From NCBI GenBank assembly GCA_013416795.1, contig RQSC01000154.1:77025-108106 (forward strand): a DNA stretch of 31,082 nt, written 5' to 3'. Positions 4,908 through 8,003 of the stretch are shown one piece after another (position 1 is the stretch's first letter; each line of letters starts with the position of its first letter). This DNA is from Prasinococcaceae sp. CCMP 1430 (lineage: Eukaryota > Prasinodermophyta > Palmophyllophyceae > Prasinococcales > Prasinococcaceae). A program made the position numbers and the translations under genes. A model generated the notes under the pieces. That model made no database searches. It was given only the letters and a program-made list of their open reading frames with translations, and was not told where the DNA came from.

Positions 4908-6743
4908 TTGACCTGGCCCTTGTCAGTTGACGGCGTTATCCACAACGCCCCAAAAATGTATGGTGGCAACGGGCCCCACTCATCGCAGCGAGCGAGCGAG
5001 CGAGCGCGGGGCGGCGGGGGAGAGCGAGAGCGGGCCGGGGCGGGCCGGGGGGGAGGCGGGCACAACGCGCGCCGCGCACCGCAACGCACGGNCCCGCTCC
5101 GCCGGAGCGCGCCGCGCCGTCTGCGCGCGACTGCCGCCGCCGATGACCGCCGCGCCGTCATCGGCGGCGAGCGATGGCTCACGCACGCGCCGCTGGCGTA
5201 CTTCGCGCTCGACAAGCTCGCGGCCAAAGGCCTCCGCGCGAACGCCGATGTGGGCTCGCCGAACGACTCGTCGCGGCCGCTGCTCAAGCTGGGCGACGTC
5301 GCCGTGGGCTCGTGGGCGTGCACCACCGGCGGATGGGAGAGCCCGTCGCCGCGGGCGTCGACCGAGGTCTTCTACGTGCTGAAGGGCGAGGGCTCTGTCG
5401 ACGATGAAGATGGCACCCGGCACCGCTTCGGGGCGGGGGACCTGGTCACGCTGCCGCGCGGCTGGAGTGGCCGCTGGGACGTGACGTCGACGGAGACGCT
5501 GCACAAGGTGTGGGTTACGCACGCCCACCCCGAGGTTAGCGGCGCCTCCACCGCCGCCGTCGTGACGACGCCGATCGCGCCGGCGCAGACCTCCGGCTGG
5601 TTCAAGCGCGACGTGGCGAGCGGTCCGTCGCACAAGGTGGCGTACAACGTGGGTGGCACGTCGGTCTCGGTGTGGAGTGCCCCGCCCGGCACGAAGCAGC
5701 AGCAAGCCGATCCCACGATCCAGGCGCTCCACGTGCTCGACGGCGTCGCCTTCGTCACCAACGCCGACGGCACCGCGTACCGCTGCGCCGCCGGCGACAC
5801 GCTCGTGCTGCCCGCGGGGTGGTCGGGCAGCTGGGACATTGTCGAGGAGCTGAAGGCGGTGTCGGTCGCCGTCGGCGATGGGACGGCGGCGCCGGGAATC
5901 TCCGCCAGCGCAGCCAGCACTTCGCAGTCCAAGGCCCGCCGGCCTATCGTCGGCGGCAACTGGAAGTGCAATCCCGAGAGCTTCGACGACCTGCCGGGGC
6001 TCATCGCCAACATCAATGCGTGCGACACGACGCACTGCGACGTGTACGTCTGCCCGTCGAACTTGCACGTGGGCGCGGTCTACAATTCGTTCACGAACGG
6101 CGCGCTCGTCGCGCCCCAGAACTGCAACTTCAAGGGCACTGGCGCCTTCACCGGCGAGATGGCGGTCGAGCAGATGAAGTCGATGGGGATGAAATGGGTG
6201 CTCATCGGCCACTCGGAGCGCCGCGGCGAGTTCGGCCTCCCCACGCCGGCTGAGTCGAACGCTCTGCTCGCGACGAAGCTCGAGCACATCCTCGACCAGG
6301 GGCTCAACTGCATCCTCGCGATCGGGGAGCCGCTGCCCGTGCGCGAGAAGGGCATCGACGCTGTCATGGAGAACCTGATTCCGCAGCTCGCCGAGGTGAA
6401 AGATCTGCTGAGCCCCGAGCGCGTCGTCATCGCGTACGAGCCGGTGTGGTCCATCGGCACCGGCGTCACGGCGACGCCGGCGCAGGCGCAGGAGACGCAC
6501 GCGGCCATCCGCCAGTGGATCCGCGAGAACGTCTCCGACAGCTGCGCCGACGGCATCCGCATCCAGTACGGCGGCTCGGCGAACGCTTCGAACGCGCCCG
6601 AGCTTGCGGCGTGCCCCGATGTCGACGGCTTCCTCGTTGGCGGCGCCAGTCTGAAGCCCGAGTTCAAGGACATTGTGGCGGCGCTGGTACCCGAGGAGAC
6701 CCGGCTGGCCGCGGAGCGCCAAAAACTAGAGAAGGCGATGTGA
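4908..6743 (+). CDS. Tandem cupin - triosephosphate isomerase fusion
   Basis: This is one uninterrupted 611-codon frame. Residues about 125-205 and 235-325 are two cupin_3 (DUF861)-type beta-barrel modules. The first has the usual YVLKGEG, GAGDLVTLPRGWSG pattern; the second repeats it as HVLDGVA, AAGDTLVLPAGWSGSWD. After an Ala/Ser/Thr linker, residues about 347-600 are a complete triosephosphate isomerase. It shows GGNWKCN with catalytic Lys353, IGHSERR with His435, AYEPVWSIGTG with Glu511 and the phosphate loop, then YGGSAN and GFLVGGASL. TPI interconverts dihydroxyacetone phosphate and glyceraldehyde 3-phosphate in glycolysis and the Calvin cycle. No in-frame ATG lies between the second cupin and the catalytic lysine, so the isomerase cannot be made alone from this transcript without splicing. 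The Arg/Ala/Ser-rich N-terminus resembles a plastid transit peptide. The start could be 4908 or 4956, and the single N at 5092 makes the N-terminus slightly uncertain. Confidence 0.9.
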   Translation: MTWPLSVDGVIHNAPKMYGGNGPHSSQRASERARGGGGERERAGAGRGGGGHNARRAPQRTXPLRRSAPRRLRATAAADDRRAVIGGERWLTHAPLAYFALDKLAAKGLRANADVGSPNDSSRPLLKLGDVAVGSWACTTGGWESPSPRASTEVFYVLKGEGSVDDEDGTRHRFGAGDLVTLPRGWSGRWDVTSTETLHKVWVTHAHPEVSGASTAAVVTTPIAPAQTSGWFKRDVASGPSHKVAYNVGGTSVSVWSAPPGTKQQQADPTIQALHVLDGVAFVTNADGTAYRCAAGDTLVLPAGWSGSWDIVEELKAVSVAVGDGTAAPGISASAASTSQSKARRPIVGGNWKCNPESFDDLPGLIANINACDTTHCDVYVCPSNLHVGAVYNSFTNGALVAPQNCNFKGTGAFTGEMAVEQMKSMGMKWVLIGHSERRGEFGLPTPAESNALLATKLEHILDQGLNCILAIGEPLPVREKGIDAVMENLIPQLAEVKDLLSPERVVIAYEPVWSIGTGVTATPAQAQETHAAIRQWIRENVSDSCADGIRIQYGGSANASNAPELAACPDVDGFLVGGASLKPEFKDIVAALVPEETRLAAERQKLEKAM

Positions 6744-6921: not shown

Positions 6922-6951
6922 TTGAATTGAATTGAATTGAATCGAATCGAA
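6922..6951. repeat. TTGAA/TCGAA pentanucleotide repeat
   Basis: Four TTGAA units are followed by two TCGAA units, six pentamers in all. It lies between the cupin-TPI gene and the CS-domain gene, about 205 bases before the latter's start. Confidence 0.95.
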
Positions 6952-7157
6952 TGCGCGAATCACGCGCGCACTTGGTATCATGCGTTCGAACAGAGCCTGA
7001 TCAGACGGACGGTCGCGTGTTCCGTTCCCCCAGCGGGCGCGGGCGCCGGCGGGGCGCGCCAAGCGGCACACCCCGCGCCGGCGCGAGGCGCGGCCGCCTG
7101 GCGGGCGAGCGGCGGGCCGCAACCGGCTCCGGCGCGGAACAGCGGGCGGCAGCGGCG

Positions 7158-8003
7158 ATGACGGACTTCGCCAAGTGGGACCGCATCGTCTTCGAGATGA
7201 GCGACAGCGATGATGAGGCAGCGGCGACCGCGACGGCAGCGGCCGAGCGCGCGCCGCGCGCGGTGCCTCGGCCGGTCGTCGCCAACGGCATGGGCAACGC
7301 GCTCGGCCACAACGCCGATGTGGCCGACGTCGAAGCGGTGCGCCTTAGTGAGGTCGCCTGGCGCGACCTGGGCGACACGGTGGAGATCACATTGCCGCTG
7401 GGCGATGCTGCGCGCAACAGCGTCGCATGCAGCTTCGGTGCTCGATCGATTGAGCTGCGGCTAGGCGCACCGCCCACGCAGCAGCGCGTGCTGCGCGTGA
7501 AGCGGCTGCATGCGCGCGTCGCGCCGGAGCGGTGCGAGTTCGCCGTGGCGTCGAAGGGCACGGCGGACTTTCACTCGGAGGGGATCGTGCGCGTGACGCT
7601 AGTGAAGGTAGATGCGGGGGGAGCGGCATGGAAGTCGCTCGAGGCCACGGGTCCTGACGCGCTACAGGTCAGCGCGCGCGAGCGAGCGCGCGGCGCGCCT
7701 CCGCTGACCATCAGTAGCTACTCGTGGCTCGATCTCACGCAGGGCGTGCGTGTGTTCCTCAACGTGCCCGAAATCGACAGCATCCCACTCGGGGACATCA
7801 CCGTCAACTTCCGGGACAAGTCTTTTGACGTGGAGGTACTCGACATCGCGCGTGCCAAGCGCTGGGTGCTCGCCGTCACGGAACTGCCTGACACCGTCAT
7901 TATCGGGCAGTGCAAGTGGAAGGTCAAGGACGGTCAGCTTTCGGTGTATCTGCGCAAGTGGGCGCGCATGGGATGGTCTAAACTCCAGATGAAGCGAGGA
8001 TGA
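7158..8003 (+). CDS. Double CS-domain (p23/CacyBP-like) protein
   Basis: The 281-residue protein starts at ATG 7158 with MTDFAKWDRIVFEMSDSDDE, a short Lys-Trp-Asp plus acidic pattern common at the N-terminus of CS-domain proteins; sequence upstream is Arg/Gly-rich leader. Two CS-type beta-sandwich regions follow. One spans about residues 58-165 (VAWRDLGDTVEITLPLG). A better one spans about 184-278 (SSYSWLDLTQ, then GDITVNFRDKSFDVEVLD and a closing VYLRKWARMGWSKL). The second resembles the CacyBP/SIP CS domain. CS domains act as Hsp90 co-chaperone or scaffolding modules in the cytosol and nucleus. No Siah-binding, SGS or TPR segment is seen. Compared with CacyBP it replaces the N-terminal dimerisation region by another CS-like domain. 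A CS-domain assignment is firm; the exact subfamily is not. Confidence 0.8.
   Translation: MTDFAKWDRIVFEMSDSDDEAAATATAAAERAPRAVPRPVVANGMGNALGHNADVADVEAVRLSEVAWRDLGDTVEITLPLGDAARNSVACSFGARSIELRLGAPPTQQRVLRVKRLHARVAPERCEFAVASKGTADFHSEGIVRVTLVKVDAGGAAWKSLEATGPDALQVSARERARGAPPLTISSYSWLDLTQGVRVFLNVPEIDSIPLGDITVNFRDKSFDVEVLDIARAKRWVLAVTELPDTVIIGQCKWKVKDGQLSVYLRKWARMGWSKLQMKRG

Follow-up and report, generated by a model that had tools for sequence, protein, structure and literature searches.

One open frame for two cupin domains and a triosephosphate isomerase

In the alga Prasinococcaceae sp. CCMP 1430, two cupin domains and a triosephosphate isomerase (TPI) in all likelihood form one fused protein encoded by a single nuclear gene. 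The reading that we favour, at a probability of about 0.5 for its parts taken jointly, is that this protein would be an active TPI to which a non-metal cupin module is attached. The window (the whole stretch analysed, 31,082 nucleotides) comes from a 24.5 Mb assembly, in which it lies on contig C57; its own GC content is about 69%. On its + strand, positions 4908-6743 make up one open frame of 611 codons without a stop; when this stretch was simulated 2000 times with a dinucleotide-Markov model, not one run remained stop-free over the full length. Translated, the frame gives two Cupin_3 domains and then a complete TPI, and no stop or in-frame ATG comes between them; the first two in-frame methionines are residues 17 and 418, any others lying further on, so that the TPI core lacks an in-frame start of its own. 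The first-pass annotation had described both a cupin-cupin-TPI arrangement in a single frame and a TPI part devoid of an in-frame ATG of its own, and on both points the 611-codon frame, with its Pfam TIM match, its two Cupin_3 stretches (E-value 1.2e-25 for the whole protein) and its methionine positions, agrees with it.

The two parts are joined by an Ala/Ser-rich linker (residues 326-345, 5883-5942, + strand) which contains no in-frame stop, has a positive coding score and is predicted to be disordered (pLDDT 32-35). With a codon-usage score trained on a set of host genes, the fusion TPI itself being one of them, the fusion frame is the only forward frame to be favoured between about 5130 and about 6690, also across the linker, and third-position GC stays at about 0.9 along the cupin-linker-TPI coding stretch, with no break at the linker. 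The TPI domain is followed by a short C-terminal tail (6684-6743, + strand), ending in ETRLAAERQKLEKAM and a stop. The case for a fusion thus relies on four features together: the shared frame, the lack of a stop after the cupins, the lack of a start before the TPI and the continuity of the coding signal. The fusion is present at a single locus, and the remaining matches in the genome are separate TPI genes. Just downstream, another open frame is found at 6951-8003 (+ strand), the C-terminal part of which looks by eye like a CS domain; CA and GAATT-type simple repeats lie between the two.

Could splicing, nevertheless, separate the cupins from the TPI, the latter being read from some other upstream exon spliced into the linker? 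CAG trinucleotides are present in the linker, leaders are apparently carried by separate first exons in other genes of this genome (the TPI gene on contig C52 and GapA), and the openness of the short linker is in itself uninformative, since 73% of simulated 16-codon stretches are stop-free as well. However, the cupin frame meets no stop before the TPI, both domains lie in one frame, and the coding signal runs through the linker without any noncoding gap between the domains, so that we hold such an error in the gene model to be quite improbable. That separate cupin and TPI genes were joined by an assembly error is more improbable still. An ambiguous base at 5092 marks a region that was hard to sequence, and the contig is short (108 kb), the window reaching its end; but this base is upstream of both domains, away from the junction, and the common frame, the third-position GC near 0.9 and the host codon usage shared by cupin and TPI make it unlikely that the join is foreign or accidental. 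We also rejected a bicistronic arrangement of two ORFs, as no stop separates the domains.

A eukaryote-type TPI expected to be active

The TPI domain (residues 346-592, 5943-6683, + strand) was delimited with Pfam PF00121, TIGR00419, matches to PDB sequences and Foldseek comparison with TPI structures. It matches PF00121 (TIM) with an E-value of 2.8e-66 and 224 bits for a cut-off of 20.1, and exceeds the TIGR00419 cut-off (177.2 versus 130.6 bits). Its best PDB score, 225 bits, is to eukaryotic TPIs, and identity to TPIs from bacterial plasmids is 40-43%. The completeness of the domain, already asserted in the first-pass annotation, is confirmed by the presence of the catalytic residues in their expected surroundings, i.e. 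Lys353 (5964-5966) in GNWK, His435 (6210-6212) in GHSERR and Glu511 (6438-6440) in YEPVW, all on the + strand. A five-residue insertion follows GHSERR. On these sequence features, the domain is of eukaryotic type and should very probably be active. The TPI family consists of dimeric isomerases; the fused domain, as an obligate dimer, would interconvert DHAP and glyceraldehyde-3-phosphate.

Cytosolic and chloroplast TPIs of plants and algae (6cg9, 4obt, 4ohq, 4mkn) belong to the same family and have the same conserved active site. The fusion TPI is more divergent, with 208 bits to the cytosolic enzyme 6cg9 as against 302 for the TPI encoded on C52, and differs by its insertion and its cupins.

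Three TPI genes, and the probable location of the fusion

Genome searches revealed three TPI loci: the fusion, and one gene on each of the contigs C52 and C55. The C52 gene, whose product is 46% identical to the fusion TPI, is split by introns; its inferred first exon encodes a transit-peptide-like leader of 36 residues, in phase with the FIVGGNWKSNG sequence. The protein scores about 301-307 bits against plant cytosolic TPIs and 288-291 against chloroplast or Chlamydomonas-type TPIs. Its sequence makes it the likely plastid enzyme, and a better candidate for that role than the fusion. The C55 protein (L003:844-2298 (+), G000:C55:30969-31883) is divergent but TPI-like (7.3e-42). It has ATWTG at the GNWK site and YCPAW for YEPVW; the histidine is kept, but as the catalytic Lys and Glu are both missing, it is probably a pseudoenzyme. 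The fusion is then the only TPI found in the genome, besides that of C52, which should be active.

The first-pass annotation had seen a possible transit peptide and, from it, suggested a plastid location, for which the 5' end of the gene provides no clear support. The nominal start of the frame, TTG at 4908, is implausible for a nuclear gene, and the sole in-frame ATG upstream of the cupins is at 4956. The putative leader starting there (4956-5174, + strand, delimited from methionine positions and a listing of codons) consists of Arg/Gly-rich codons of low complexity up to about 5090 and then of the Arg/Ala-rich segment PLRRSAPRRLRATAAADD. The ambiguous base at 5092, an N, has no counterpart elsewhere in the window, and an indel at this place would shift the frame of everything upstream. 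By the codon-usage score, no coding signal was seen before about 5094-5130. It can be argued in favour of a plastid location that an in-frame ATG does exist and that the segment just after the N, rich in Arg, Ala and Ser, resembles green algal transit peptides. Against it, the stretch from the ATG to about 5090 contains acidic residues in addition to its low complexity and lack of coding signal, and it is the C52 TPI which has a separate exon with a transit-peptide-like leader joined to its core. The arrangement of leader and core on separate exons is apparently also that of a GapA-like gene on contig C82. We therefore regard a plastid fusion as doubtful; with the C52 gene as the likely source of the plastid enzyme, the fusion could well be, by exclusion, a second, non-plastid (cytosolic) TPI, a reading that we rate at roughly even odds.

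Two other observations relate to plastid functions in this genome. A fragment of a nuclear RbcS gene of green type is present, and a GAPDH encoded on contig C140 (L151:718-1893 (-)) has a CP12-like C-terminal extension, CATNPDADECKVFDD, a tail of the kind found in GapB. Both are indications that the organism is a green alga.

One conserved and one degenerate cupin

Cupin domain 1 (Cupin_3/DUF861) spans residues 90-208 (5175-5531, + strand; Pfam core 5289-5492) and cupin domain 2, a degenerate Cupin_3, residues 225-325 (5580-5882, + strand; Pfam core 5658-5849). With 57.3 and 41.8 bits for a cut-off of 23.5, both pass the threshold of PF05899 (Cupin_3, EutQ-like/DUF861), and the proposal that the two front domains are of the Cupin_3 type thus stands. 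A motif-seeded scan of 84,980 prokaryotic genomes (pattern GWSG[RS]WD[VI]) retrieved relatives of cupin 1 at 70 loci. Taking as conserved a position that is the same in at least 85% of these bacterial cupins, which gives 34 positions, 29 are retained in cupin 1 and 15 in cupin 2. These figures are partly circular, because the scan was seeded with the motif; when the seven motif positions are left out (our own count, from the same table), they become 22/27 and 9/27. The retained residues of cupin 1 include W136, C138, W143, R149, E153, W186, R189, W190, D191 and K200; of these, E153 is the nearly invariant glutamate of the family, which in cupin 2 is replaced by a glutamine (Gln272). Among the conserved residues that cupin 1 has lost, T140 stands for P, H199 for R and W202 for Y. 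No alignment column has a histidine in 30% or more of the 70 bacterial relatives, i.e. the classical His/His/Glu/His metal site is absent, and with a family so devoid of conserved histidines the pair is unlikely to be a metal cupin enzyme of the classical kind.

The full-length predicted structure is of moderate quality (pTM 0.50). In it, cupin 1 has a pLDDT of about 90 or above, cupin 2 of about 75, the linker is disordered, and the TPI part shows mixed pLDDT values, which we attribute to a shallow alignment. When cupin 2 was modelled alone (AF2), its mean pLDDT was 82 and its best PDB match the DUF861 protein 3bcw, other matches of this fold including the dimerisation cupins of CENP-C and Mif2. 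Both cupins are complete as predicted folds. The nearest solved structures by sequence profile are DUF861 proteins, namely BB1179 (3bcw), TM1112 (1o5u, 1lkn) and 3es4; these and PSPTO_0244 (3myx, 238 aa) belong by profile to the same family as the algal cupins, 3bcw and 3es4 being also at the top by fold. None of these solved cupins is fused to a TPI, and their molecules are recorded as uncharacterised.

Bacterial relatives and a possible role for the cupin pair

The bacterial relatives are single, stand-alone DUF861 proteins of about 115 amino acids, and the closest of them are 42-48% identical to cupin 1. Neither a tandem cupin copy nor a TPI was found in the fetched flanks of the 70 loci, and in four of these bacterial genomes, searched whole, TPI is located apart from the cupin. 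The alga departs from this pattern by having two copies, the second degenerate, fused to an enzyme. A comparison with PTAC18-type cupins had also been suggested; it found no support among the prokaryotic genomes searched, where the nearest relatives were these stand-alone bacterial proteins. A tree of the two algal cupins with the 70 bacterial ones placed neither of the former, their branches being very long; most simply, the pair would descend by duplication from a single cupin of bacterial type.

The upstream gene, where scanned, usually encodes a DAO-type FAD oxidoreductase and once an aldehyde dehydrogenase. Within 3 kb of the cupin, the former is found at 42 of the 70 loci, the latter at 21, and one or both at 48. 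These neighbours suggest that amine or aldehyde oxidation, and not glycolysis, is the setting of the bacterial family. None of the bacterial cupins tested against NCBIfam received a named function.

Such neighbours lend some weight to the idea that the cupin pair is itself an enzyme, for instance one whose substrate is a reactive product such as an aldehyde, an imine or an amine, in which case the protein would be bifunctional and may handle by-products arising near the TPI, e.g. methylglyoxal. The many conserved residues retained by cupin 1 could be invoked too. But the family is without conserved metal-ligand histidines, the T140, H199 and W202 substitutions affect cupin 1 itself, no bacterial relative has an activity named in NCBIfam and the bacterial cupins show no link to TPI; altogether, we find a catalytic cupin pair unlikely. 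The missing histidines fit better with a binding or structural role than with classical cupin catalysis. The first-pass annotation had envisaged a sensing, oligomerising or metabolite-binding role, and such a role is conceivable; the reading that we favour, at about even odds, is a non-metal module for ligand binding or for oligomerisation. In such a module, cupin 1 would provide a conserved pocket and cupin 2 a degenerate structural partner, the two acting as an internal pseudo-dimer, and the bicupin would bind a small ligand and/or keep the TPI dimer within a larger complex. A TPI can tolerate an N-terminal partner, as in the PGK-TIM of Thermotoga, a tetramer (PMC7729029). One may speculate further that a ligand held by the bicupin, whose ancestry would lie in bacterial amine oxidation, controls the activity or the assembly of the TPI, so that triose phosphates would be tied directly, through regulation or detoxification, to the metabolism of nitrogen or aldehydes; we see this as a long shot, to be given even less credit than a catalytic pair.

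A second case of Cupin_3 fused to a carbohydrate-type enzyme exists in the same genome: on contig C121 (L006:1-1686 (+)), a seven-bladed lactonase (PF10282, 8.4e-67) and a C-terminal Cupin_3 (3.7e-14) are in one open frame.

Comparison with known TPI fusions

No cupin-TPI fusion was found among plasmids, viral contigs, the 70 bacterial loci and the four whole bacterial genomes. The plasmid search brought partial matches only, with less than 80% of the query covered in each of 300 records, and viral contigs scanned with fusion or TPI queries yielded no relative. Scanning with the DNA pattern for GNWKMN retrieved a few ordinary TPIs of bacterial type, most matches being unrelated. In the freely readable literature on cupin and TPI, judged by title and abstract, no such fusion is reported. 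The combination is thus without precedent within the sources searched (prokaryotic, plasmid, viral and literature). A contig of the viral collection (L121:2-1522 (-)) carries a truncated TPI in frame with a sequence resembling, by eye, phosphoglycerate mutase; a frameshift is possible there.

TPI fusions with other partners are on record. TPI-GAPDH proteins occur in stramenopiles, some Cercozoa and an apusozoan (PMC3527533). As in our case, TPI is covalently joined to another protein in an alga or protist, and a separate TPI is also present (in diatoms). In these proteins, however, TPI is N-terminal, its partner is the next glycolytic enzyme and there is a mitochondrial leader, whereas here TPI is C-terminal and its partner a bicupin not known to be connected with glycolysis. 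According to Pfam, the fusion frame contains no GAPDH domain, and the GAPDH genes are elsewhere in the genome. The PGK-TIM of Thermotoga (PMC7729029; NCBIfam NF010569) is closer in layout, its TPI being also C-terminal, behind a larger N-terminal part, but the partner is a glycolytic enzyme, phosphoglycerate kinase, instead of two small cupins. The algal protein matches NF010569 over its TPI half only and, with 195.7 bits for a cut-off of 883, does not belong to this family. The covalent partners of TPI that we found, in TPI-GAPDH and in PGK-TIM, are thus glycolytic enzymes in both cases.

Significance

TPI is usually seen as a catalytically perfect, hardly regulated enzyme that stands alone. 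If the fusion with domains of a ligand-binding type is genuine, it would offer a simple system in which to ask whether the flux of triose phosphates can be gated, either by a metabolite that is bound or by an imposed assembly. Moreover, it would be a case of a bacterial-type cupin put to use by a eukaryote, and as such it may help to find the role of a widespread bacterial family.
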